From: Gottschalkiaceae bacterium SANA
GTDB taxonomy: Bacteria > Bacillota > Clostridia > Tissierellales > GPF-1
Direction of reading: 5' to 3'
Assembly (NCBI GenBank): GCA_036323355.1
Contig: AP028876.1
Coordinates: 1,302,001-1,366,000 of the forward strand
DNA length: 64,000 nucleotides
In this document: piece after piece, positions 14,293 through 35,947 of the stretch
How positions within the stretch are numbered: position 1 is the stretch's first letter
Layout: every line of letters begins with the position of its first letter
The notes under the pieces: model-generated
Databases searched by the model: none
The model's input: only the letters and a program-made list of their open reading frames with translations
Told to the model about the DNA's origin: nothing
Made by a program: the position numbers and the translations under genes

Positions 14293-14309
14293 TTGGCACG
14301 TGAATTGCA
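14293..14309 (+). promoter_or_regulatory. Sigma-54 (-24/-12) promoter of the PTS operon
   Basis: TTGGCACGTGAATTGCA matches the consensus TTGGCACG-N4-TTGCW at every position, with GG (14295-14296) and GC (14307-14308) exactly 10 bases apart. The gene start must lie downstream, which decides for ATG 14335. Confidence 0.92.
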
Positions 14310-22496: not shown

Positions 22497-24074
22497 ATGG
22501 CTTATGATGTGGTAGTTTCATACGCAAGAGAGGATCGGGGAATAGCAGTAACTCTCTGCAATCAATTGCAAGCAGAGGGCGTGCAAGCTCGTATTGTAAC
22601 TCGGGTGACAAGGCTGGATGAGGGGTTTGCTGCAGAAATCGCTGGCATGATTTCAATGGCAAAAGTGCTTATTGTTGTTATGTCTGCAAATTCCAATCAA
22701 TCGGGTCAAGTGATTCGAGAAGTGGAGCTGGCGACAACGAATGGACTAGAAATTCTGATTGCAAACCTGGACGAAACAAAACCAACGGGAAGCTTGGGGT
22801 ATTTTTTATCCGATAAGCGATGGTTCAGTATGAAGAACAAAGAAGTGGAAGCGTGGGAGACGGCAAGTGAAATTCGTGCTTATCTCGGAAAAGAGATGAG
22901 CGGACAAGAGGATGCAGTTGAAAAGGTGCAGGCGACAATCAATGAGATAAAAAACAAACCGGAAACGGAAACACAGAACTTTAAACGGAAAACCACCAAG
23001 GCGGTTTTAGCCATGCTCGCGATCCCCATTTTTTTTATTCTGGTCATCTGGATGATCTTGTCGCAATTTGATTTCAGTGGATCTCCGTCTGATAAAGACT
23101 ACGAGGCAGCCATGCAACATATTATTGTGATGCAGGATTCTACCTTGGAGAAGGCGATTGTTAAAACGCTGTCCAACCAGGGGTATATGGTGGAAGGTGA
23201 GTTGACAGAGGCTGATTTATGGGAACTGACTTCGTTGAAAGTGATTTCACCCGATGAAAGAGAACGACGACTCGAGGACTCGCTGTTAAAAGATTTTAAT
23301 CAAGAAATTGCTGAAAATGGTTTGATTGAAATCGATGGAATTATTGAAAGTCTGGATGGTTTGGAATATGCCAAGAATCTAAATGCATTGATTATTGCAG
23401 GACAATCGATTCAAAAAATCGATGCTCTTGAAAGTTTAACCAGTCTTACCTATTTGGATTTGGGTGGCAATCAGATCAATAATATCGTGTCTTTAGGGAG
23501 TCTTAAGAATATTCGAGTGCTAAATTTAAATGATAATACAATTCGTGATATTGGTCCCCTTGAAACATTAGAACGGGTGACTGATTTGAACTTGTCAAAC
23601 AATGAGATCATTGATATTTCGTCTTTAGAAAAGATGGGAGAGATCAAAAACATAAAGCTGATGAACAACAAGATTCATAATATTAGAACCCTTGGGAAGC
23701 TAACGTCATTAGAGGCGATTTATCTTTCTGGAAATGAAGTTGATGAGATTAGCCATTTAGCAGAGCTAAAAAAGTTGATTTTTTTGAATGCCAAGGGTAA
23801 TCGAATTATTTCAATTAATGACCTGTCTTCGTTAAATAAATTGAAGTGGCTGTATCTAGGTGAGAATACCATTCGAGATCTTTCCGTACTGAAGGAGTTT
23901 GAGTCTTTGATCGAATTAGGAATCGAGCATAACCAACTTCAAAATATAAATGTCTTGGAAGATCTGAACGAAGAGTTTAAAATGCTTTGGATTGACGAGC
24001 AAACTTATCGTGCTAATCTTGAACTTATGGAGCGTCTTGAGGAAGCCGATCTCGTTATTCAGGTAATCGAGTAA
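22497..24074 (+). CDS. TIR - transmembrane - leucine-rich-repeat protein
   Basis: The 525-residue protein has three parts. Residues 1 to about 130 are a TIR_2 domain: YDVVVSYAREDRG, VTRLDEGFAAEI, VLIVVMSANSNQSGQVIREV (with the Glu at the NADase catalytic position) and LDETKPTGSLGYFLS. A basic stretch (KRKTTK) and one membrane helix follow at about 166-190 (AVLAMLAIPIFFILVIWMIL). From about residue 285 there are roughly nine 22-residue leucine-rich repeats of the SDS22/internalin kind (LTSLTYLDLGGNQINNI). Positive residues before the helix predict TIR inside and LRR outside. It may act as a receptor with NAD-cleaving or scaffold TIR. AAGGAG precedes the ATG. Confidence 0.88.
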   Translation: MAYDVVVSYAREDRGIAVTLCNQLQAEGVQARIVTRVTRLDEGFAAEIAGMISMAKVLIVVMSANSNQSGQVIREVELATTNGLEILIANLDETKPTGSLGYFLSDKRWFSMKNKEVEAWETASEIRAYLGKEMSGQEDAVEKVQATINEIKNKPETETQNFKRKTTKAVLAMLAIPIFFILVIWMILSQFDFSGSPSDKDYEAAMQHIIVMQDSTLEKAIVKTLSNQGYMVEGELTEADLWELTSLKVISPDERERRLEDSLLKDFNQEIAENGLIEIDGIIESLDGLEYAKNLNALIIAGQSIQKIDALESLTSLTYLDLGGNQINNIVSLGSLKNIRVLNLNDNTIRDIGPLETLERVTDLNLSNNEIIDISSLEKMGEIKNIKLMNNKIHNIRTLGKLTSLEAIYLSGNEVDEISHLAELKKLIFLNAKGNRIISINDLSSLNKLKWLYLGENTIRDLSVLKEFESLIELGIEHNQLQNINVLEDLNEEFKMLWIDEQTYRANLELMERLEEADLVIQVIE

Positions 24075-24174: not shown

Positions 24175-24636
24175 ATGTCATTTGAAATCGTATGCGGCGA
24201 CATTACAAAGATCCAGGTGGATGCAATTGTAAACGCAGCGAATGCTGACTTACAAAGAGGCGGAGGCGTTTGCGGTGCAATTTTTTCAGCGGTGGGAGCG
24301 CAAGAATTGCAGGCTGAATGCAATCAAATCGGCCATTGCGATACGGGTCAGGCAGTCATCACCAAAGCATACAAGTTGCCTGTGCAATACATTATTCATA
24401 CTGTGGGGCCAGTTTGGCATGGTGGAGATAGCAATGAAGAAACCTTGTTATATAATTGTTATATGAATTCACTGAAACTTGCTAAGAAAAATAATTGTAG
24501 ATCGATTGCCTTTCCTTTGATCTCATCAGGGATCTATGGTTATCCGAAAGAAGAGGCGAGGGCGGTCGCAGAAAGTGCCATTCTGGATTTTTTAGAATAT
24601 CAGCAAATGCAAGTGAAGCTCGTTTTGTTCCAATGA
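24175..24636 (+). CDS. Macrodomain protein (YmdB-like ADP-ribose binding)
   Basis: The 153-residue protein is a single macrodomain: VDAIVNAANADL, RGGGVCGAIF, CDTGQAVITKAY, YIIHTVGPVW and FPLISSGIYGYP are in the order and spacing of YmdB/MacroD relatives. Known members bind ADP-ribose and hydrolyse O-acetyl-ADP-ribose or mono-ADP-ribose esters. It ends slightly earlier than usual for the family (after VKLVLFQ) but the core is complete. It lies 100 bp after the TIR-LRR gene with no terminator between, so both may share a transcript, and a TIR NADase product could be its ligand. GGGTGGGAG precedes the ATG. Confidence 0.9.
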   Translation: MSFEIVCGDITKIQVDAIVNAANADLQRGGGVCGAIFSAVGAQELQAECNQIGHCDTGQAVITKAYKLPVQYIIHTVGPVWHGGDSNEETLLYNCYMNSLKLAKKNNCRSIAFPLISSGIYGYPKEEARAVAESAILDFLEYQQMQVKLVLFQ

Positions 24637-24736: not shown

Positions 24737-26290
24737 TTACTGGCAAAGATCTCCGACTGCTTTGACTCGAATTCGAGTCGCATTGCCAGGGTGATAAGCC
24801 AAAGGAATATCTTCCACTTCTTGAATTTCAATGGAACTTGGTTCAGCACCAGCCTTGATGGCTTCTTCGGTAGCAGTTGTTTTTGCGCTGACAATCGCTT
24901 CGTCGCGCGTGATATCAACCAAGGAGAAGACACGGTTGATTTCGCCGCTGACTTGTGAAATGGCGGATCCAACAGCGTTAGCCACAGGGAAGTGATTGGG
25001 TCGAATAATCTCCGAGATCCCTTCCAACTCATCCGTGACAAGGACACTTCCGCCTCCTACTAATATTACGGGAACAGGATCGGCTGATATCTTCATTCGA
25101 TCAACGCCTTCGCTGATCAAGCGCATCCACTCAGTCATCGCTTTTTTCGCAAAGCCTTCATCAATGTGCGCAACCAAAGTGGAATCGCCTAAGTCCATCA
25201 TGCCAAGACGAACTGCGATGTCGGAAGTGGTTAAGGTATCGCCACCAAAAATCAGGGATTTTTCCGTGATTTGATAACCTACACTTTCGGGTCCCACAAT
25301 CACTTTATCTCCTACTTCTTTAACCAAGGTGCCGCCGCCAACGCCGATCGCTGTGATATCCGGCATTCTGAAATTGGTACGAGCACCGCCAATAGTAACG
25401 GCTAGAGAAGATTCCCGTGGAAATCCACTCATAATGACACCGATATCGGTCGTTGTACCGCCGACATCCAATACGATAGCATTTTGATTTTGACTGAGGT
25501 ATGAAGCGCCTCGAATGCTGTTGGTAGGACCGCAAGCAATGGTCAAAATGGGGTAGCGCTGCGCGTATTCAGAGGACATTAAGGTACCGTCGTTCTGGCA
25601 TAGATACAATTCTGCATCCAATATGCCTTCTTGCTTTAATCCAGCCTTAAAGCCTTCCACTGTTCTTGTCGCAACATTGTGAAGTGCTGCATTTAAAATA
25701 GTTGCATTCTCTCTTTCAATTAGCCCAACGGATGCAATTTCACTTGATTTGGAAATTGGAATGTCTCCCAGTTCTTCGCGTAAAATGCTTTCCACTTCAT
25801 ACTCGTGATCATTTCGAACGGGTGAGAAGACAGCTGTAAGGGCAATGGTATCTACCTTGCCTTTTAGTTGTTTTGCAACCTCTCGAATCTCTTGTGCATC
25901 AAGCGGTGAGATCTCGCGACCATCAAATTCGTAGCCGCCCTTAATGATGTGAATATTGCTGCCGATTGCTTGACGAAGGGATTCTGGCCAGTCTGGCATG
26001 GGTCGGATGCTGAAGGTGGCCGGTGCTGCGATTCGGATGATTCCGACACGGCAGAGACCTTTTCTTTCAACAATGGCATTGGTGCAATGGGTGGTGCCCA
26101 GCATAGCGTAGTCTATTTTCTGTTTATTGATTTGACTTTCACGAAGCACTTTCTTGATGGCATTATTAATTCCAGTTGTAACATCAAGGGTTGTAGGCAT
26201 TTTTACACCTGCAACAACATGCAAAGATTCATCTATGATAACTGCATCGGTATTTGTACCGCCAACATCAATTCCTAATCTATATTTCAT
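24737..26290 (-). CDS. Hydantoinase/oxoprolinase-family (HyuA-type) protein
   Basis: The 517-residue protein has the actin-like ATPase fold of the hydantoinase A family: YRLGIDVGGTNTDAV at the N-terminus, GTTHCTNAI near 65, and the second phosphate loop LDVGGTTTDIGVI near 270, both glycine-rich motifs intact. Known relatives hydrolyse hydantoins, 5-oxoproline or carboxylate ketones in an ATP-dependent way. No HyuB subunit is nearby; the partner here is a DUF917 protein whose stop codon ends 1 base before this ATG. It is the last gene of a sigma-54 operon. Confidence 0.88.
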   Translation of the reverse strand: MKYRLGIDVGGTNTDAVIIDESLHVVAGVKMPTTLDVTTGINNAIKKVLRESQINKQKIDYAMLGTTHCTNAIVERKGLCRVGIIRIAAPATFSIRPMPDWPESLRQAIGSNIHIIKGGYEFDGREISPLDAQEIREVAKQLKGKVDTIALTAVFSPVRNDHEYEVESILREELGDIPISKSSEIASVGLIERENATILNAALHNVATRTVEGFKAGLKQEGILDAELYLCQNDGTLMSSEYAQRYPILTIACGPTNSIRGASYLSQNQNAIVLDVGGTTTDIGVIMSGFPRESSLAVTIGGARTNFRMPDITAIGVGGGTLVKEVGDKVIVGPESVGYQITEKSLIFGGDTLTTSDIAVRLGMMDLGDSTLVAHIDEGFAKKAMTEWMRLISEGVDRMKISADPVPVILVGGGSVLVTDELEGISEIIRPNHFPVANAVGSAISQVSGEINRVFSLVDITRDEAIVSAKTTATEEAIKAGAEPSSIEIQEVEDIPLAYHPGNATRIRVKAVGDLCQ

Positions 26291-26291
26291 C

Positions 26292-27380
26292 CTACTTGGC
26301 TCCCTTCACTCGTTCTTCGATTGGTACATAGTCTATGTCATATTTGAAGTAGCGTGGCCCCACAGTCTCGATTCCTTTTTTTGTTCTCCACTTTTCATCA
26401 CAGCGCAAGCCGACAACCACAACACGGCGTCCATATTTCAAGGCTTCCGTTGTAATGGGAACACCGGTTTCCAAGTCAACGATCGTAATTAGATCTGGGG
26501 TGGTTGCCAAGACTTCATCGCCCTTCATCACAACCAAGTTTTCGTTTTGGAAGTCCACGTGGCAGGATTCGCCCTTGTCTGCATTAATGCCAACGATTTT
26601 CGCTTTCCCGAAGTTGAAACCTTGACGGGTTTCTCGCAGAATATCAACGATTTTACCGGTAAACAGCTTGTATCCGTCTACGAAGTTGATCATGCGGTCG
26701 ATGGGAAGAATGTCAGAGTCATCTTTATCCATAATGGAAGCTCCAATATTCTCGGCAAGGGTTAGGGTATTGTAAATGGCTGATTTTTTCAACTGATGTC
26801 CAAACATGGAATAAATGGAGATCATAACGGACCCGCCCATGGTGATGGTAGCGGTGCGGGCCAAGGTTTCTGACCAGGTGTTGCTGACGGTTTCCATGAT
26901 CATGGAGTTGCCTTTTTCATCGGTAACGACCATGGGGCTTGTTGTAATTCCATCTAAATGAAAGGTAACCATCTGAAGCTCGGGGAAGGCGCGCCCCATG
27001 CCATCGCAATCAATGATGGGGATGCCTAATTTGGCAGCAACAGCGAATGGAAGCATGGAATTCACACCGCCAGCTTCGATAGGAAGGGTAGCGAATACCT
27101 TTTGGCCCGTGTATTTTTCAAGATGATTGATGATGACATCAAATTCTTGTCCATTGGCAATTTTCTCAATTAAAACAGTGGGGGCACCCATCATTGCTGT
27201 TGGCACCACGAAGGCGTCATCGGGCACTTCGCTCGGATCCAACATTTGTATGGGCCCGTATTGTCGGATGGCCTCTATGGCCATCAGTTTGCCGATGTAG
27301 GGGTCTCCGCCACCACCGGTGCCTAGTAGTGCGGCACCTAAAGCGATTTTTTCAATAGCTTTTTCGTCAATCAGTCTCAT
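26292..27380 (-). CDS. DUF917 (S-methylthiohydantoin desulfurase-like) protein
   Basis: The 362-residue protein starts MRLIDEKAIEKIALGAALLG and shows the DUF917 signatures GTGGGGDPYIGKL and PIIDCDGMGRAFPELQM. A characterised relative of this family is an S-methylthiohydantoin desulfurase; most members are encoded next to HyuA-type proteins, as here. The start at 27380 follows AGGAGG; the 25 in-frame codons upstream overlap the permease gene and are not used. It lies 13 bp behind the permease in one operon. A second, related copy is at 30718. Confidence 0.88.
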   Translation of the reverse strand: MRLIDEKAIEKIALGAALLGTGGGGDPYIGKLMAIEAIRQYGPIQMLDPSEVPDDAFVVPTAMMGAPTVLIEKIANGQEFDVIINHLEKYTGQKVFATLPIEAGGVNSMLPFAVAAKLGIPIIDCDGMGRAFPELQMVTFHLDGITTSPMVVTDEKGNSMIMETVSNTWSETLARTATITMGGSVMISIYSMFGHQLKKSAIYNTLTLAENIGASIMDKDDSDILPIDRMINFVDGYKLFTGKIVDILRETRQGFNFGKAKIVGINADKGESCHVDFQNENLVVMKGDEVLATTPDLITIVDLETGVPITTEALKYGRRVVVVGLRCDEKWRTKKGIETVGPRYFKYDIDYVPIEERVKGAK

Positions 27381-27393
27381 GTCTTTTTTCCTC

Positions 27394-28707
27394 CTATGCA
27401 CTGACCTCTTTGTCAGTGTTACTTTCTTCTTTGGAACCTGTGTCTTTGTTTTCAAATTTATTCAAAATGACATTGGCGATCATCGCAACAACAATGGCAT
27501 TGACCGGTGCGCTGCCCATATGAACAAAGTAGCCAACTGCAAAGCCGATTAACCAAGAGATTACGCCTGTCCAACGAACGCCTTCCTCTTCTTTCCACTT
27601 GCTTGGGTCACCTTTTCGAATAATCCAGTAGTCTGCGATCATAACGCCGGCAATCGGTGAGATGCCTGTTGTTAATACCAATAGGAAGGGGATAAAGTGG
27701 TTCATAATTCCAACAACGGCTAAAACCGTGCCGATGATGCCGGCAATTGCTGTTGCCATAGGACGCTTGTCGTCTTTCAGATGGAACATACTTGTCAAAG
27801 CGATACCACCTGAATAGGCGTTTACCGCATTGGTTGTCCAGGTTGCCAAAATTAGAATCATCAATCCGATCAAAGGGAAACCTAAATTGGAAACGACCTG
27901 AGTCATATCCGCGGAGCCTGCGGTAATGGCCATTAGTGCCCCTGCACTCAATAAGATGACACCCATTGGCAATACGCCCAAAACGGAGGAAAGGATGGCA
28001 CCCTTTCGGTTTTCTGCATAGCGAGAGTAGTCGGGAGCGATAACGCCACCAACGGCGAAACCGCCAACGGTGATTGCAACGCCTTGCAAGAATGAGAAAG
28101 GTGCAGCTGGCGTATAGCTTAGCAATGCGTCCATGCCAAAGTTTGAAACAACACTATAGGTTCCGTATATGGCCATAAGCAAAAGAGCTGGTACAGCAAC
28201 ATAATTCAAGTAAGCCAAAGCCTTGTAACCATAAACAGCCGTCATCAGCATAATGGCACCCCAAATGGCAGCAGACAATTGGAAGGAAATGTTGACGCCT
28301 AGCCAATCATTCATAATGCTTGAGAATGCGCTTCCTGTGATGCTGGTCTGAACACCAAACCAACCCATAACGGAAATGCCAATTACGAATGAGATGATAA
28401 AGGATGCTCCACTCTTTCCAAATGCCGAACTGGCGGATGAAACGGTGGGTCGACCTAGGTCAGCGCCTTGGACACCTTGGAAAGTCATAAATAAAACGAC
28501 GATTGCATAGCCGACGAAACCAGCAAGCAAGGCTTGTTTTAATGGCAAGCCTGAAACGAGGACACCACCAACCATCAAAGATGATACGCTGATAATTGCA
28601 CCGATCCAGATGAGTGCGATACTCACCCAATGCTTTCTTTCGGACTGGGGAATTGATTCCAGTGCATGCTTTTCAATAAATCCATCATTTTTCTTTTCTG
28701 TGTTCAT
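27394..28707 (-). CDS. NCS1-family (cytosine/hydantoin permease-like) transporter
   Basis: The 437-residue protein has about 12 membrane helices. The patterns LMVGGVLVSGLPLKQALLAG, GADLGRPTVSSASSAFG and GWFGVQTSITGSAFS are those of NCS1 nucleobase:cation symporters (CodB and the hydantoin carrier Mhp1). It probably imports the substrate of the DUF917/HyuA proteins. Start ATG 28707 follows AAAGGAGG; further upstream codons in frame fall between promoter and ribosome binding site. It is the first gene of the minus-strand sigma-54 operon. Confidence 0.88.
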   Translation of the reverse strand: MNTEKKNDGFIEKHALESIPQSERKHWVSIALIWIGAIISVSSLMVGGVLVSGLPLKQALLAGFVGYAIVVLFMTFQGVQGADLGRPTVSSASSAFGKSGASFIISFVIGISVMGWFGVQTSITGSAFSSIMNDWLGVNISFQLSAAIWGAIMLMTAVYGYKALAYLNYVAVPALLLMAIYGTYSVVSNFGMDALLSYTPAAPFSFLQGVAITVGGFAVGGVIAPDYSRYAENRKGAILSSVLGVLPMGVILLSAGALMAITAGSADMTQVVSNLGFPLIGLMILILATWTTNAVNAYSGGIALTSMFHLKDDKRPMATAIAGIIGTVLAVVGIMNHFIPFLLVLTTGISPIAGVMIADYWIIRKGDPSKWKEEEGVRWTGVISWLIGFAVGYFVHMGSAPVNAIVVAMIANVILNKFENKDTGSKEESNTDKEVSA

Positions 28708-28765: not shown

Positions 28766-28782
28766 TGCAAGTTTCGTGCCAA
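28766..28782 (-). promoter_or_regulatory. Sigma-54 promoter of the permease-DUF917-HyuA operon
   Basis: On the minus strand TTGGCACGAAACTTGCA matches TTGGCACG-N4-TTGCW completely, with GG and GC 10 bases apart. It lies 59 bases before the permease start codon and faces the sigma-54 activator gene. Confidence 0.93.
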
Positions 28783-28860
28783 AAGGAAAATGGCATTTTT
28801 GTGAAAAAGACAATAATAGCAGATGAAACAAGTCGAAATCGAGAGTAATCGTATAGATTA

Positions 28861-28941
28861 TTCTCATGATTTCCAATTTGTTTTGCATAAATTCTCGTTT
28901 TTTCTCATTTTTTCTAAAAAAATCGCATTTTTCTCATTTTT
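28861..28941. promoter_or_regulatory. TTCTCATTTTT repeats, candidate enhancer for the divergent sigma-54 operon
   Basis: The 347-base gap 28708-29054 holds two promoters and this region. TTCTCATTTTT occurs at 28902 and 28931 (29 bp apart), with related TTCTCAT at 28861 and TTCTCG at 28892. The distance to the sigma-54 promoter (about 100-170 bp) suits activator binding. The low complexity of the tract weakens the case. Confidence 0.4.
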
Positions 28942-28972: not shown

Positions 28973-29054
28973 GGTATTAACAAACTTGAAAAAGATGAAT
29001 TTCATGGATAAATAGTAATCATTTGAATTGATGGTTGATGGGAGGACACAGATT

Positions 29055-30683
29055 GTGGAAGAATTGAAACGTCTTTTAATGAGCTTTGGAGAACGGACCT
29101 ATCAAACAATCGTCTTGTTTGATCAAAACCAAATCATTTATATTATCGGAAAGTCTGTTTCATTTGAGGGCTTCAGTGAATTGTGGGAGCAGCGGAATAA
29201 TCAACCTGTGAATGAATTTGACTGCCCTGGGCGTGTCAGTTTTCATGGAAACTATGGATTATTATGGATTGCAGAGTCATTTGATGAGCGTTATCCGATC
29301 TATTTAAAGATGGTGGACTTACATGTTGAGAATGATCGGCTTCAAAAATTGCAACACTTCTATAACCACATCATTCGGGAAATTGGACGTGTTTCAGATA
29401 CAGGAATCTTAGTTGTTAATGACAAGGGACAGCTTTTATATGAGAATGATGCATCGCAGCAGATTGATTTGAAGATGACAGTTGCTGAGCTAGCTAAGAT
29501 TGATGAGCCGGCACCAATGAAATTTGATGAGATGATTAGAGAGTATCCCTCTCACAAAATTTATCGTAGAGGATTGCCAGATCAAAAAAGTACCCTTATT
29601 TTTTCTAAGGTGATGCAAGGAGAGGTTCAAAAAACACAAGCTTATGAATCTGCGGCATCTCTAGAAAGAAAAATTATCGGACAGACTTCTACTATGGAAG
29701 AAATTATGAATACCATTAACAAGGTTGCGCCAACAGACTCTACGATATTGATTCGCGGAGAAAGTGGAACCGGTAAAGAAGGCTTTGCCAAGTTAATTCA
29801 TAACAAAAGCCCGAGAAAAAACAAGCCGTTCATAGCCATCAATTGCGCGTCGATACCAGAAGACTTGTTGGAAAGTGAGTTATTTGGCTATGCAAAAGGC
29901 TCTTTTACAGGCGCTTTAAAGGGCGGAAAAACAGGTAAATTTGAAGCTGCTAACAAAGGAACGATCTTTTTGGATGAAATTGGCGACATGTCAATGAATT
30001 TACAGGCGAAATTATTACGGGTCTTAGAGGAAAAGACAATAGAGAAGGTCGGGGGGGGTCGGTCGATCAAGGTAGATGTGCGAATTATCAGCGCTACCCA
30101 TCAGAATTTGGAGACTATGATTTTAAAGAAACAATTCAGAAAGGATTTGTTTTATCGGTTGAATGTCATTCCCATACCGATCCCTGCACTTCGCGACAGA
30201 GCAGAAGATATCGAAAATCTGGTGCATTACTATATTAAGAAGCATAGTATCGTGAACAGTCGTTCCTTTATGCGACCATCAGTAGAAGTAATTGAAAAGA
30301 TGAAGGCCTACAATTGGCCAGGAAATATTCGCGAATTGATTAATGTGGTTGAGTATATTGTATCTACCGAAGACGGAGAAATTATTACAGAGAAGATGCT
30401 CCCTCGTGAAATTTTGAATATAAAGCGAAGAGAGAAGCCGGATGGGAAATTATATCAAGCCATTGAAGAGACCGTGAAACGACATGTTGTGCCGATTGAA
30501 AACTACCAAAGACAATTGGTGAAGAAATCGAAGGCAAAACCAAGAAAACCGAATCGGAAGGAACTTTTAAAATTGCTTGACGAGTTCGGATATTCCAGTG
30601 AGAACAAAAAGGAACTAGCCAAACATTTGGGTATTAGTCCAGCTACTTTGTATCGATGGCTGAAAAAGAATGAGATCACTTGA
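29055..30683 (+). CDS. Sigma-54-dependent transcriptional activator
   Basis: The 542-residue protein has an N-terminal sensory region with a PAS-like segment near 120 (GILVVNDKGQLLYENDA). An AAA+ domain follows: Walker A GESGTGKEGFAK, GSFTGA, Walker B TIFLDEIGDM, and the sensor/arginine region RKDLFYRLNVIPI. The C-terminus has a helix-turn-helix (LAKHLGISPATLYRWLKKN). It very probably activates the sigma-54 promoter at 28766-28782. GTG 29055 is chosen as start because GGGAGG lies at 29039-29044; TTG 29028 and ATG 29031 lie upstream of that site. A run of eight G (30051-30058) lies inside the AAA+ coding region. Confidence 0.9.
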   Translation: MEELKRLLMSFGERTYQTIVLFDQNQIIYIIGKSVSFEGFSELWEQRNNQPVNEFDCPGRVSFHGNYGLLWIAESFDERYPIYLKMVDLHVENDRLQKLQHFYNHIIREIGRVSDTGILVVNDKGQLLYENDASQQIDLKMTVAELAKIDEPAPMKFDEMIREYPSHKIYRRGLPDQKSTLIFSKVMQGEVQKTQAYESAASLERKIIGQTSTMEEIMNTINKVAPTDSTILIRGESGTGKEGFAKLIHNKSPRKNKPFIAINCASIPEDLLESELFGYAKGSFTGALKGGKTGKFEAANKGTIFLDEIGDMSMNLQAKLLRVLEEKTIEKVGGGRSIKVDVRIISATHQNLETMILKKQFRKDLFYRLNVIPIPIPALRDRAEDIENLVHYYIKKHSIVNSRSFMRPSVEVIEKMKAYNWPGNIRELINVVEYIVSTEDGEIITEKMLPREILNIKRREKPDGKLYQAIEETVKRHVVPIENYQRQLVKKSKAKPRKPNRKELLKLLDEFGYSSENKKELAKHLGISPATLYRWLKKNEIT

Positions 30684-30717
30684 TGGGTAGAAGTGAGCTC
30701 GAAGGGAGATGACTCAT

Positions 30718-31794
30718 ATGAAAAAGATTGATAAGCAATCGCTTGAAGCCCTTATGGTAGGCAGTCAATTTCTGGGTTCTGGTGGTGGCGGAAAGATTCA
30801 CATTTTAAGACAATTGGTTAAGGATAGTTTTGATGATTCTTTTTCGGTTGATTTGATGGCAGTCGATGAAATAGCCGAGGAAGGGATTGGTACAACGGTC
30901 GGTATGGTTGGCTCTCCAGAAGCCCTCGAGGAATTCTTGCCTACAGGACAAGAAGGCAGAGAATTATTGGATAAAATGCAGGAACTGACGGGGAAGAAAA
31001 CCGATGCAATCTTTACCATAGAGGGAGCGGGTGTTAATTTGATTTATCCGGTTATCGTTGCCTATGCGACGGGATTGCCAATCATTGACGGTGATGGCAT
31101 GGGGCGTGCATTTCCGGAATTGCCCATGACAACCTTTCAATTCAATAATCAACCAATTGCGCCCATCGTTTTTCAGGACATCGACCATATCTCCTATGTG
31201 TACAATGACCAAGACGCCAGCATGGTGGATTTAAAAATCAGGCAGAAGATTGCGGAGACCACGGGTATGGCATTTTTTGCTGGCTATCAAGCTCCTTATG
31301 CTGCGTTGAAACGAATCTTGATTCCTCATACCTTTTCGGTTGGGTTGAAGATTGGAGAAGCGTTTTTGCATGCGAATAATTTTGATGACCTGATGAGTGA
31401 GTTGGGCCACGTAACGCGTAATTCTCTTTATGGTTCTGCCATTGAAATTACGCGTGGTGTTGTCAGTGAACATGTCGCTATGGACCACTCTAATATCGCA
31501 TCGTATCAGGTGGGCGAATACAAAGTATACTATCACTATGAAAATCTAATGGTCTACCATAACAAGAAGTTGGTGGCCAATGTGCCTGATTTAATTACTT
31601 TGGTAGACTTGGATACTTTAGAGCCAATCTCTGTGACTGATGCGGAACTAGGCATGCGGGTTGCCATCGTGGCTACACCGGCGCCTTTGCAATTGAGAAC
31701 ACCGACTGCGCTCAGTTATGTAGGACCAAAAGCCTTTGGATTCAAGTCGGCTTATGAACCCTTGGAGAAGATTCATTTCAAGCATTTTTTCTAA
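30718..31794 (+). CDS. DUF917 family protein, second copy
   Basis: The 358-residue protein starts MKKIDKQSLEALMVG and carries FLGSGGGGKIHIL and PIIDGDGMGRAFPELPM, matching the signatures of the DUF917 protein at 26292. It lies 34 bp behind the activator gene, in the same direction. The start ATG 30718 is 9 bases after AAGGGAG; an earlier ATG at 30709 abuts that site and is unlikely. Together with the following gene it mirrors the DUF917-HyuA pair on the other strand. Confidence 0.85.
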   Translation: MKKIDKQSLEALMVGSQFLGSGGGGKIHILRQLVKDSFDDSFSVDLMAVDEIAEEGIGTTVGMVGSPEALEEFLPTGQEGRELLDKMQELTGKKTDAIFTIEGAGVNLIYPVIVAYATGLPIIDGDGMGRAFPELPMTTFQFNNQPIAPIVFQDIDHISYVYNDQDASMVDLKIRQKIAETTGMAFFAGYQAPYAALKRILIPHTFSVGLKIGEAFLHANNFDDLMSELGHVTRNSLYGSAIEITRGVVSEHVAMDHSNIASYQVGEYKVYYHYENLMVYHNKKLVANVPDLITLVDLDTLEPISVTDAELGMRVAIVATPAPLQLRTPTALSYVGPKAFGFKSAYEPLEKIHFKHFF

Positions 31795-31813: not shown

Positions 31814-32908
31814 ATGGCGCAATTGGGTCTTGTGATTCAGAAGGGTCAAGTGAAATATTTGTACGGGGAAGCGGGAACCATTGTTTTTTCTCAGTTGAAT
31901 GGGGATTTCGTAGAATGGATGGATGCATGTGGCATTGCTCTTGCTAGGATCGATTCTCTTGTTGTTCAAAAGGACTTTTGCGAGGAACTGCCACCAATTC
32001 AAGCTGAAGGTGGGCAATATCGGTTGGAGTTCGAAGGGTTTGTAAGAGAAAAGCTTTTTGATTCGAATCAAGGGTCTACGATAAGTCTTGAGGAAATGCG
32101 GCAGAAACAATTGGCAGAGTTTGATGCAGAGGATGTAGTTACCCCCGACGTAGAACTGATTCGTAATCAAATAACCCGGGAGGATTACTGGGTGATGAAT
32201 CTGATGCTGCATGAGCGGGCAAAAGAGTTTGTAAATGATCTTGAAGAAAAGCAAAAGCAATTTGGAATCAAGGTGCCGATCTACTTCTTGACGGGGAGCG
32301 GGTTTCTTACGGATGCCAAGAATGTGTTAAGAAATCCTGTATTAACTTGGCGGTCTGCTCAGGTATTGGAGTTGTTATCAACTGCTCGTCATCATCGATT
32401 AGAAAACTTTATTTATGTAAAGAAGCAAGAGGATGCCTATTCTCTTGCAGTGATGAAAGAAGGGGAAGTCATTGACTATCAGAATCGCTGTAGCTTTAAT
32501 GGGTTTGAACTGCCACCATGGTTTGTGAAAATCAGCAAATCTAAATCAAGCGATGTAGAGAATGCCATTACATTTCTAAAACGGATTCATGGAGAATTAC
32601 CTCTGGTGACAGAAGGCGAAAGTTGGAATAAGCGAGTTGAATACAGCCAGTATGCAGCCATGAGAAACCTGGTGGCGGGGTTGTTTCAGATTCCATACCG
32701 AAAACGACTCTTTCGACAGATCAACATGGCGCAAGGTAAGTTGACGGATCAAATAGAAGAAGAAATCAGACGGGCGATGGATCAGTACCTGATAAGAAAC
32801 GGGATCCGTCTTAAAGATCCAACATACACCATCAGCAGTGAGAACTGGCAGTACTCCTTGGAGAGGATTGCAAGGCTGGAGTTGAGGGTTGTTGGAAAAA
32901 TTGATTGA
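31814..32908 (+). CDS. Degenerate HyuA-like protein without ATP-binding motifs
   Basis: The 364-residue protein aligns by eye with the intact HyuA at 24737. ITREDYWVMNLMLHERA matches its IERENATILNAALHNVA, and YFLTGSGFLTDAKNVL-x-NPVLT matches its YLCQNDGTLMSSEYAQ-x-YPILT. The glycine-rich loops are gone: where HyuA has LDVGGTTTD this protein has IYVKKQEDA, and the N-terminal GGTNTD is absent. It is therefore probably a non-catalytic paralogue, perhaps a structural or regulatory partner of the DUF917 protein encoded 19 bp upstream. Homology is inferred from short matches. GGGAGGTGA precedes the ATG. Confidence 0.65.
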   Translation: MAQLGLVIQKGQVKYLYGEAGTIVFSQLNGDFVEWMDACGIALARIDSLVVQKDFCEELPPIQAEGGQYRLEFEGFVREKLFDSNQGSTISLEEMRQKQLAEFDAEDVVTPDVELIRNQITREDYWVMNLMLHERAKEFVNDLEEKQKQFGIKVPIYFLTGSGFLTDAKNVLRNPVLTWRSAQVLELLSTARHHRLENFIYVKKQEDAYSLAVMKEGEVIDYQNRCSFNGFELPPWFVKISKSKSSDVENAITFLKRIHGELPLVTEGESWNKRVEYSQYAAMRNLVAGLFQIPYRKRLFRQINMAQGKLTDQIEEEIRRAMDQYLIRNGIRLKDPTYTISSENWQYSLERIARLELRVVGKID

Positions 32909-32913
32909 GTTAG

Positions 32914-32938
32914 ATGCTGAGAAATCAGCATTTTTTTT
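32914..32938 (+). terminator. Terminator of the activator/DUF917 operon
   Basis: A perfect 7-bp stem ATGCTGA / TCAGCAT with loop GAAA runs into eight T. Confidence 0.88.
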
Positions 32939-33207: not shown

Positions 33208-34503
33208 GTGAAAGAGATTCGAAGTGAAGCTAAGAAATTAAAAGATACTGGGAAATATCATGAAGCTATAAGATTGTATGAGCAAATCTACGAGGAAGTT
33301 TTTGATAAGTGGATTGCATGGGAGTATTCATATTGCCTAAAAGGGTCTGGTCATATTGATAAAGCGATTGAGGTATCAAAAAGTATTTATAAGCACTCTA
33401 GTGATTTTAAAATTAACAATGATATGTTGGCGTGGTTACTTTTTGAGAAATATTATAAAGAGAAAAAAGATAATTATTCTTATATTGAAGTCGATAACAT
33501 GTATAAAATAGCATTGTTCGTTCCAAGGTTAGTTACACAAGAAAAAAAGTCTCCATTTGAAAGAATAGTGCTTACAATGATAAAAATAATTAAGAATCAT
33601 GATGGTAATTCAATAAACGCAAATGAAAAAGTTCTCAATTTGATTGAATTAATCGATCCAAATAAATTATCTCTTGAACCGCGTATAAGCAAATCATCAC
33701 GAAAACAAAGAGTCTACCAATCGAATAGAGAAATGTATTATGCAACTAAAACCAAAGTGTTGTTAAATTTGGATAAGTTTAGTGAGTGTCTGGATTGTTG
33801 CGAAGATGCTTATGCATCAATTAAAGTGTTTCACCATGACAATGATATTTGGATTGATATTAGAAGAGCATTGTGTAAAGCGAAATTAGAAGGACCGCTA
33901 GTCGCAATTGCAGAAATGAAGCAAATTTCAATGAAGAAAAAACACTGGATTATTTTTTATGAACTTGGAAAGTTATACGAGAGTGTAGGGGATCAGGAAA
34001 ATGCTTTGCTGAATTATTGTCGAGCAAGTATTTCTTCTGAGCCCATAAAGATGAAGGTGAAGCTCTATTATGATACATATCAATTATTGAAAGAAGCTAA
34101 GGAAAAGAATTGGGCTGAAGTGCACGCATTTTATATCGTGAGAATCAAAGAGCAACAAGGGTGGAATTTAACACCAGAATTGGCTGAGATAAAAAAGAAA
34201 AATGAAGGATATGATAAATCAATTGAATTTATCGGAGCATGTTTGCGAAAATATTGGATTGACTCTATCCATAAAGTTCTAGGGGAAAAGACCGGAAAAA
34301 TTATTAAAATTGATAAAAGCAATAGGTTTGGATTTATTAAAAGCAATAATGAAAGTTACTATTTTCAGAGTAAATCAGTTTTGAATTCTCATAAGATTGT
34401 GGTTAATGACCAAGTAAAATTCTGTATTATTGAATCTTTTGATTATAAAAAGAATAGAGTTAGTGAAGAGGCAGCATATATAACAATTAGTAATGTGGAT
34501 TAA
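33208..34503 (+). CDS. TPR-repeat protein with C-terminal cold-shock-like domain
   Basis: The 431-residue protein begins with helical repeats of the TPR type (AKKLKDTGKYHEAIRLYEQI, ALCKAKLEGPLVAIAEM, YELGKLYESVGDQENALLNY). Its last 70 residues resemble a cold-shock/S1-type RNA-binding barrel: GKIIKIDKSNRFGFIKSNNE contains an RNP1-like RFGFI, then YYFQSKSVL. RNA or nucleic-acid binding with protein-protein contacts is inferred. It is the first gene of a three-gene unit with the RNase H-RnlA fusion. Start GTG 33208 follows TAGGTGAT. Codon use is clearly more A/T-rich than in flanking genes. Confidence 0.75.
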   Translation: MKEIRSEAKKLKDTGKYHEAIRLYEQIYEEVFDKWIAWEYSYCLKGSGHIDKAIEVSKSIYKHSSDFKINNDMLAWLLFEKYYKEKKDNYSYIEVDNMYKIALFVPRLVTQEKKSPFERIVLTMIKIIKNHDGNSINANEKVLNLIELIDPNKLSLEPRISKSSRKQRVYQSNREMYYATKTKVLLNLDKFSECLDCCEDAYASIKVFHHDNDIWIDIRRALCKAKLEGPLVAIAEMKQISMKKKHWIIFYELGKLYESVGDQENALLNYCRASISSEPIKMKVKLYYDTYQLLKEAKEKNWAEVHAFYIVRIKEQQGWNLTPELAEIKKKNEGYDKSIEFIGACLRKYWIDSIHKVLGEKTGKIIKIDKSNRFGFIKSNNESYYFQSKSVLNSHKIVVNDQVKFCIIESFDYKKNRVSEEAAYITISNVD

Positions 34504-34525
34504 ACTTCAGTATATGGAGGCTGAG

Positions 34526-35947
34526 ATGGCGAAAAAATTTTATGCAGTGAAAAGTGGACGTAAAACAGGGATATATGAATCATGGGAAGAATGTAAGGAG
34601 CAAGTCGATGGGTTTTCTGGGGCATCGTACAAGAGTTTTCCAGCTCGCAAACTAGCTTGTGACTTCCTAGGTATAATTGATGATGTTCAAACTGGGATTG
34701 AAAGGTCAGGGATCGCGGAGGCAATAGCATATGTAGATGGTAGCTTTAATAATAAGTCCAAAGAATTTTCATTTGGAGTAATTATTTTTCACGATCAGAT
34801 AGAAGAACGTTTTGCAGAGATAGGTTCCGATCCTAATCTTGTAGCGATGAGGAATGTGGCTGGAGAGATACAGGGTGCCGAAAAGGCGATGAAGTTTTGC
34901 ATTGAAAACGGAATTGCAAGTTTGGATCTTCATTATGATTATGAAGGGATAGAAAAATGGTGTACAGGAGAATGGAAGGCAAAAAAAGAAGGGACAAAAG
35001 CATATAAGGAATTTTATAATGGGATCAAAAATGAGCTGAGCGTTAATTTTATTAAAGTTAAGAGTCACTCTGGAGATACATACAATGAACTAGCAGATGA
35101 ACTTGCAAAAAGTGCATTGGGAATAATCAGCGCACAAGAAATTACGCATACAGATAATAATATGACTGCTAAGAATATTGAATTCGGTGATTTGATGTGC
35201 ATTGTTGATTTATTGAATGAAGAGATAAAAGACTTAAAAGTATCACCATGTAGCATACCATATGGAGAAGGTTTTTATTTGAGTGTTAAGGAACCTAAAA
35301 GGCAAAAACTGAAAGTTGTTCATTTTGCTGATAAAAGCAAATTGTGGGTACAAGGAAAAAGGGAAGAGCTATTCAATAGATTTTCGACATATTTGATTGA
35401 GCTGTTAGAAACTGAGGATGTTTCGGAATTTTTGAATACTGTTCATAATCTACATATCAAAAAGGTGGAAATTGAATCTGAATTCGAGCTTTATTTTCCA
35501 AATGCTATTGGACAGCTTCCGGAAAAATTGAATAATTATCTGCATCAAGCAGTTTATAATTTAAGAATTCAAGGAAATGTTTACAATGCAACTTTTTTGG
35601 TCGAACCTGCGATTAGACCATTAGAAGCGTTAATTAAAATTGCTTTGCAGGATAATGATATACCTATTAGAGAAGATGGTAATAAGTATGATTCGTTCTT
35701 TGTTTTTTATAAAGAGCACGGGATATGCAAGTTGAATAGTAATTATATTACATCTAGTCATAGTGAGGCGTTTATTGAATACATAGAAAGGTGTTATAAT
35801 CACTATAATAAGAATAGGCATACATTATCACATTGGGATAATCCTAGTGACAGTGTGGATACTACAAGAATAATTAAATCGGTATATGATGCACACATGC
35901 TAATTAAGGATACATTATGTATAATAGATGAGTATTATTCTTTGTAA
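34526..35947 (+). CDS. RNase H1 fused to an RnlA-type HEPN toxin
   Basis: The 473-residue protein has an N-terminal hybrid-binding (viroplasmin) domain (AKKFYAVKSGRKTGIY). An RNase H1 domain follows with the catalytic set visible: D71 in YVDGS, E114 in GEIQGAEKAM, D138 in LHYDYEG, D191 in NELADELAK. The C-terminal half (about 210-473) resembles RnlA, the RNase LS toxin. R364 and E367 in AIRPLEALIK, and R431-x4-H436 in RHTLSHW, reproduce the spacing of the E. coli RnlA HEPN active site (R255, E258, R318, H323, from memory). An mRNA endonuclease toxin is inferred. ATG 34526 follows TGGAGG; the upstream in-frame ATG 34493 overlaps the previous gene. Confidence 0.85.
   Translation: MAKKFYAVKSGRKTGIYESWEECKEQVDGFSGASYKSFPARKLACDFLGIIDDVQTGIERSGIAEAIAYVDGSFNNKSKEFSFGVIIFHDQIEERFAEIGSDPNLVAMRNVAGEIQGAEKAMKFCIENGIASLDLHYDYEGIEKWCTGEWKAKKEGTKAYKEFYNGIKNELSVNFIKVKSHSGDTYNELADELAKSALGIISAQEITHTDNNMTAKNIEFGDLMCIVDLLNEEIKDLKVSPCSIPYGEGFYLSVKEPKRQKLKVVHFADKSKLWVQGKREELFNRFSTYLIELLETEDVSEFLNTVHNLHIKKVEIESEFELYFPNAIGQLPEKLNNYLHQAVYNLRIQGNVYNATFLVEPAIRPLEALIKIALQDNDIPIREDGNKYDSFFVFYKEHGICKLNSNYITSSHSEAFIEYIERCYNHYNKNRHTLSHWDNPSDSVDTTRIIKSVYDAHMLIKDTLCIIDEYYSL

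Follow-up and report, generated by a model that had tools for sequence, protein, structure and literature searches.

A degenerate HyuA paralogue encoded with a sigma-54 activator and a DUF917 protein: a candidate receptor module for a hydantoin-type operon

In yeast, Gal3 is a galactokinase paralogue without enzyme activity that acts as the sensor controlling induction of the pathway, and it still binds ATP and galactose. ROK repressors such as NagC and Mlc are relatives of kinases with the ASKHA fold that have turned into regulators and carry their own DNA-binding domain. Bachler reportedly worked in 2005 on DhaR with DhaK and DhaL. The dihydroxyacetone kinase subunits DhaK and DhaL are described as acting on the sensing domain of the activator DhaR (PMC12821955). 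DUF917 proteins are described as uncharacterised, with the suggestion that they are hydantoinases (PMC11055893). The terms hydantoin, oxoprolin, cytosine, purine and permease do not occur in the main text of a paper on the sigma-54 regulon (PMC6615313).

Here we describe a locus of Gottschalkiaceae bacterium SANA in which a sigma-54 activator, a DUF917 protein (DUF917B) and a degenerate paralogue of hydantoinase A (pseudoHyuA) are encoded in series. The window, that is the whole stretch of DNA analysed, is 64,000 nucleotides long, and the genes concerned are the following:

24737..26290, minus strand: intact HyuA, 517 aa, with glycine-rich loops (PF05378 1.9e-43, PF01968 1.8e-35)
26292..27380, minus strand: DUF917A, adjoining the intact HyuA (PF06032 and PF20906)
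27394..28707, minus strand: NCS1 family permease (PF02133 8.3e-35)
29028..30683, plus strand: sigma-54 activator (enhancer-binding protein) with a divergent N-terminal domain (PF00158 6.4e-73)
30718..31794, plus strand: DUF917B, S-Me-THD family, paralogue of DUF917A (Pfam PF06032 8.2e-41, PF20906 8.9e-35)
31814..32908, plus strand: pseudoHyuA, degenerate HyuA paralogue, 364 aa (exact ORF)
32171..32221, plus strand: codons for ITREDYWVMNLMLHERA, the best-conserved core of pseudoHyuA (alignment with HyuA)
32282..32308, plus strand: codons for YFLTGSGFL, counterpart of HyuA YLCQNDGTL (alignment)
32912..32933, plus strand: hairpin resembling a terminator, with a T run after it, immediately 3' of pseudoHyuA

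It can be seen that the permease, DUF917A and intact HyuA genes are divergent from those for the activator, DUF917B and pseudoHyuA, the latter three lying on the same strand. Both HyuA-type genes of the window adjoin a DUF917 gene, in agreement with the pairing described in the earlier note. The sequence GGGAGGTG stands 5' of the pseudoHyuA ATG, and an ATG at 30709 may be an alternative start for DUF917B. The hairpin at 32912–32933 is not above chance, since the region holds three such sites and shuffled sequences hold 3.4.

With the HyuA (hydantoinase A-oxoprolinase) family (PF05378 and PF01968) pseudoHyuA shares near full-length homology and an adjoining DUF917 gene, but it is without the phosphate loops and the GTT and GGG motifs, misses 48–79 residues and falls below the Pfam cut-offs. 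Control of DhaR is a precedent for what is proposed here from gene linkage, namely that the sensing domain of an enhancer-binding activator would be the target of subunits from a catabolic enzyme; with DhaR it is the active enzyme itself that does so, whereas the candidates here come from a separate duplicate in which the ATPase half is dead. Like Gal3, pseudoHyuA would be an inactive paralogue of a pathway enzyme that controls induction of that pathway, although Gal3 has kept ATP and galactose binding, belongs to another fold family and is eukaryotic. Like NagC and Mlc, it would be an ASKHA-fold relative turned regulator, but there the DNA-binding domain is in the same protein, whereas the present locus has a sigma-54 activator as a separate regulator. 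The thiohydantoin desulfurases (S-Me-THD, DUF917) are in one superfamily with DUF917A and DUF917B, but with the NCBIfam models of these enzymes (NF058529 and NF058532) the latter two reach at best 96 and 40 bits, respectively, under the cut-off of 450, so their reaction need not be that of the desulfurases. No published description of a module of activator, DUF917B and pseudoHyuA was found in the portions of the DUF917, hydantoinase, sigma-54 and pseudoenzyme literature that were available.

Homology of pseudoHyuA to HyuA, and its losses

Scanned by itself, pseudoHyuA matched the Pfam Hydantoinase_A model at residues 126–181 (E 0.0013, 18.4 bits), below the cut-off of 22.9 bits, and a sequence search of the PDB gave no match up to E 10. 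The cut-offs for PF01968 and PF05378 were passed by none of nine relatives, or by none of the 10 members scanned when the window protein is counted. The earlier note had nevertheless matched two stretches to the intact HyuA, and both lie in register: ITREDYWVMNLMLHERA (pseudoHyuA residues 120–136) with HyuA IERENATILNAALHNVA, and YFLTGSGFL (residues 157–165) with YLCQNDGTL. A profile made from four pseudoHyuA members, none of them an intact HyuA, picked out the HyuA encoded in the window's genome with E 1.4e-5. Profile comparison, the kind of check proposed in that note, here by hhalign, upholds the relationship, with 96.8% (E 3e-10) for six members against four HyuA sequences and 99.8% (E 5.3e-30, 423 columns) for 13 members against 20; the alignment spans HyuA from the N- to the C-terminus (template 20–537 of 539), and the controls DUF917A, DUF917B, activator and permease score 0.1% each. 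The 13-member profile omits two copies that are short or broken (genomes G302 and G729) and three found late (G766, G794 and G863). Two orthologues share 83% and 80% identity with pseudoHyuA (contigs JABXKS010000071 and DAOUQF010000031); since the three genus orthologues alone reach 42.5% (E 2.6e-4), the distant relatives are needed for homology to be recognised. Judged by these profiles, pseudoHyuA is homologous along nearly the whole of HyuA.

In a tree of HyuA and pseudoHyuA, with G302 and the three late members left out, pseudoHyuA falls on one side of a 100/100 branch; since very long branches meet in this tree, its inner order was not used. AlphaFold models of pseudoHyuA were unreliable, both from an alignment of the three orthologues (mean pLDDT 38.9) and, not independently, with the window HyuA added (38.8). 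A structure that includes a HyuA part, that of N-methylhydantoinase (7hk5), was identified by sequence.

The earlier note also stated that both phosphate loops are absent, and this extends to all 18 members: DxGGTxTD (N-terminal) and DxGGTTTD (second domain) are present in 20/20 intact HyuA and in 0/18 pseudoHyuA members. The motif GTTxxTN, the adenosine motif GGG(T/S) and the C-terminal VGGG are likewise found in none of the 18, as against 19–20 of 20 intact HyuA. Right after the GGG position a block containing VGPxSVGY and FGGDTL is missing, amounting to 48–79 HyuA residues in the 16 members aligned, in all of which HyuA residues from about 322 to 369–400 stand opposite a gap; in the window protein the missing block is 69 residues (HyuA about 322–390). 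The RTNFRMPD stretch before this block is unrecognisable, not wholly deleted. What is kept includes the Arg-Glu of the ERENATILN stretch (18/18 members), the (D/S/N)GxL of the YLCQNDGTL stretch (15/18) and, at the C-terminus of many members, a sequence resembling PLRYLPxNA...G, the counterpart of PLAYLPGNA...G in HyuA.

Retention differs greatly between the two partners of the duplicate. Eight pseudoHyuA members keep 16–35 of the 108 columns that are invariant in 15 HyuA sequences, whereas nine DUF917B sequences keep 41–51 of the 72 columns invariant in 14 DUF917A (both counts omit G302, G729 and the three late members). The DUF917A residues E102, D124 and D126 are kept in 9/9 DUF917B, the whole DPYxG stretch of DUF917A is found in none of the nine aligned, and the window DUF917B lies above the Pfam cut-offs for both DUF917 domains (140.1 and 120.2 bits, the cut-off being 27 for each).

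Nei-Gojobori dN/dS values for three pairs within the genus are 0.14–0.17 for pseudoHyuA, 0.033–0.040 for HyuA, 0.034–0.054 for DUF917B and 0.075–0.105 for the activator. PseudoHyuA is under purifying selection, constrained but differently from HyuA. Compared across eight lineages, pseudoHyuA has a median identity of 19%; the corresponding values are 17% for the N-terminal domain of the activator, 43% for DUF917B and 63% for HyuA. Distances for the activator N-terminal domain and pseudoHyuA correlate with r 0.88; since all protein pairs compared correlate at 0.76–0.96, specific co-evolution of these two is unsupported (this comparison omits the three late members).

Linkage of the module and the sigma-54 promoter

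Homologues of pseudoHyuA were found in 18 genomes, 15 by sequence and three by position, in searches that covered the relatives, the order, the class, the phylum and one further order, all within one phylum. As the neighbourhood in G302 is a contig end, this genome is left out of the linkage counts, which leaves 17 clusters with a visible neighbourhood, distributed over 11 family labels within the phylum (12 labels with G302). In all 17, DUF917B is next upstream of pseudoHyuA on the same strand and the activator precedes DUF917B, its copy being cut by a contig end in G1023 and short in G729. Gaps within the module are mostly short, with some overlaps, and reach 253 bases in G657. The module is divergent from an intact DUF917A-HyuA operon on one contig in 14/17 clusters, 13 of which include the NCS1 permease (G021 is without it). 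The clusters of G002 and G1023 are split over contigs. The G729 assembly has neither DUF917A nor the permease at the locus, and it shows a short activator and an interrupted pseudoHyuA. There, at L063 7697–9300, two pseudoHyuA parts lie about 270 bases apart and the N-terminal part of the activator is missing; provided that the assembly is correct, the module and the operon seem to be decaying together.

The linkage was also examined from the DUF917B side, by searching 60 genomes with pseudoHyuA members or HyuA matches with a DUF917B profile. This returned 14 known genes at 549 bits or more and three new ones at 430–438 bits (the late members' genomes G766, G794 and G863); the next-best match, at 349 bits, is a DUF917A gene beside an intact HyuA. 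At each of the three new loci the activator, DUF917B and an ORF of 402–438 aa face the permease, DUF917A and HyuA. These ORFs score 25.6, 25.6 and 45.6 bits with the pseudoHyuA profile (E 3e-9, 3e-9 and 3e-15, calculated per few ORFs of each locus, not per genome), and as a set they reach 96.5% to pseudoHyuA and 79.5% to HyuA by hhalign, with controls at 0.2% or less. Three DUF917B genes lacking a recognised pseudoHyuA thus each precede a still more diverged one, as predicted from linkage, and since these further loci fit, 17/17 DUF917B genes of module type are followed by pseudoHyuA.

Sequence searches had returned fewer of these genes. In that of the phylum, 13/398 genomes passed E 1e-24; five of the matches are pseudoHyuA and the other eight are open frames of 517–564 aa like intact HyuA (clusters inspected: G664, G723, G730, G766 and G863). 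The pseudoHyuA genes of G766 and G863 were missed by the phylum searches at E 1e-24 and E 1e-6, and that of G794 by the search of the further order. In a DUF917 tree of 33 rows without an outgroup, which omits the three late members, DUF917B lies on one side of a 100/100 branch.

Two features lie in the intergenic region between the divergent gene sets:

28766..28781, minus strand: sigma-54 -24/-12 promoter TGGCACGAAACTTGCA, directed towards the permease/DUF917A/HyuA operon, no mismatch
28841..28865, no strand assigned: imperfect palindrome GAGAGTAATCGTATAGATTATTCTC, candidate activator site

The promoter lies 58 bases before the permease start, and a strict site of its type arose in 0/2000 shuffles of the window intergenic region. 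Across the seven intergenic regions shuffled, this was 0/2000 in six and 1/2000 in G997; the G021 region was shortened for this test and has its site in the fuller region. A sigma-54 promoter precedes the catabolic operon in 16/17 clusters, the exception being G729, with the variants TGGTAC in G1062 and G1063 and TTGCG in G1023. In G021 and G1055 the first gene, taken at its longest reading, includes the site; the true start of this gene is presumably further in. Neither the 12 intergenic regions scanned nor the three late loci contain a sigma-54 site towards the module. Since the promoter is at the catabolic operon and none faces the module, the position of the module suits control, not co-induction. 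Since two clusters without the module (G664 and G730) have an activator and a sigma-54 site, the module is an addition to a wider regulon. A second match to the sigma-54 consensus without mismatch, TGGCACGTGAATTGCA, is present elsewhere in the window (14294–14309, plus strand).

The palindrome was not seen in the same form in seven other regions compared. By comparison with 300 shuffles, the hexamer GAGAAA is over-represented in 9/12 intergenic regions (fraction of shuffles under 0.05), and not so in the window (0.097), G997 (0.21) or G657 (1.0); it is only a hint of an activator site.

The window activator has an AAA+ domain with GSFTGA (a GAFTGA-type loop) and a Walker A pattern. A Pfam PAS domain above cut-off is present in the activators of 2/2 clusters without the module and in none of the seven tested with it, a pattern that, in small numbers, fits a hand-over of sensing to the DUF917B-pseudoHyuA pair. 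Since there are PAS-like matches below cut-off in some module activators, some of these may sense directly. Several of the activators of L062, L064, L065, L068 and L094 have an HxLCxxCPxxxxC-like cysteine motif before the PAS-like part, which is absent from those of the window genus, G021 and G060.

A possible receptor and its alternatives

The earlier note proposed a regulatory or scaffold role for pseudoHyuA, perhaps in sensing the substrate for the sigma-54 activator. The parts of this that stand strongly are a HyuA paralogue without nucleotide-binding loops, maintained by selection, in an operon-like series with the activator; the regulatory role is putative. Tied to the sigma-54 activator, such a role is the best-supported inference, since the activator link is found in 17/17 visible clusters from 11 family labels.

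We favour, with some caution, the reading that pseudoHyuA is a paralogue of HyuA, an ASKHA ATPase, that has lost the nucleotide-binding parts and is now the non-enzymatic half of a receptor. The disabled ATP-using half, together with linkage to the activator gene in every cluster examined, suggests that the duplicated enzyme pair serves as a sensor and not as an enzyme. PseudoHyuA and DUF917B would still associate in the way presumed for HyuA and DUF917A, and DUF917B, with most of its conserved residues kept, would bind the substrate or a product. Without ATP-driven turnover the ligand-bound state would persist, and the complex would switch the sigma-54 activator via its fast-evolving N-terminal domain, the catabolic operon thereby being made only when substrate is present.

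Other functions have to be weighed against this receptor. DUF917B may still be an enzyme, and it could be a second active one, for example making the inducer or opening a different ring without ATP, with pseudoHyuA only as a structural subunit and the activator in the same operon to couple its production to that of the inducer. This we consider unlikely, though it deserves attention: the 41–51 of 72 invariants kept, among them E102, D124 and D126 in 9/9 sequences, and the low dN/dS (0.034–0.054) speak for it, but no sigma-54 promoter is seen towards the module, unlike the catabolic operon, the whole DPYxG stretch is in 0/9 DUF917B, and an enzyme would not need strict linkage to an activator. 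Less probable still is that pseudoHyuA and DUF917B are non-catalytic tuning or scaffold subunits of the active HyuA-DUF917A enzyme, with the activator sensing the ligand itself. The module is with the regulator and not in the enzyme operon in 17/17 visible clusters, and the median identity of pseudoHyuA (19%, against 63% for HyuA) is unlike that of a subunit fitting a conserved partner, even if homology would allow mixed complexes and weak PAS-like stretches occur in some module activators.

That pseudoHyuA is simply a decaying pseudogene is scarcely credible. It would account for the fast divergence and for the two broken or truncated copies among 18 (G729, interrupted, and G302, with an early stop), but the other 16 of the 18 have open reading frames, the dN/dS of 0.14–0.17 contradicts decay, and the same gene order is kept in 17 clusters from 11 family labels.

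As to whether the receptor would represent a new class of sigma-54 activator input, in which a complete duplicated catabolic enzyme complex serves as a stand-alone substrate receptor encoded with the activator, we regard the case as evenly balanced. In such a receptor, its ATPase half deprived of nucleotide binding, the pocket of the enzyme would be put to use again as the sensor, and specificity would thereby come from the pathway. If the receptor reading is right, a metabolic enzyme pair would have been duplicated whole to become the receptor for its own operon, its ATPase half gutted yet kept, and a function would be assigned to a protein family without a Pfam cut-off pass in 10 members scanned. 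It would also suggest that clostridia-like bacteria have a sigma-54 regulon serving a hydantoin-type pathway, and would make the role of DUF917 proteins directly testable, since ligand binding would be separable from turnover.

Substrate and flanking genes

Selection by size and position gave eight ORFs near HyuA, from G664 and seven module clusters; of these ORFs, seven are members of the Asp/Glu/hydantoin racemase family and one is an ABC protein. In G1057 a carbon-nitrogen hydrolase lies behind HyuA, and no racemase lies beside HyuA in the window. The racemases, together with the NCS1 permease, point to a hydantoin-like ring that would be opened to an N-carbamoyl compound. The gene cluster probably breaks down a hydantoin-like compound, and the putative ligand is deduced from neighbouring genes only.

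Just past the end of the HyuA operon, a gene for a TIR-domain protein with leucine-rich repeats adjoins one for a macro-domain protein (window 22497–24074 and 24175–24636); PADLOC gave no match for either. Behind pseudoHyuA, window 33208–35947 encodes two proteins that may form a toxin-antitoxin or defence pair: one matches the PADLOC model for a fusion of TPR repeats and a cold-shock-like domain, and the other is a fusion of RNase H with RnlA-toxin/HEPN RNase LS-like domains. Three close relatives differ in the region that follows pseudoHyuA: L010 7325–12135 encodes a Vsr endonuclease, a helicase with matches to PADLOC NERD-helicase models and a protein whose C-terminus is DrmE-like, L009 4185–9289 has genes that, judged by eye, resemble a PTS operon with a regulator, and the window has the RNase H pair at the corresponding place. 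This stretch may be an insertion hot spot.
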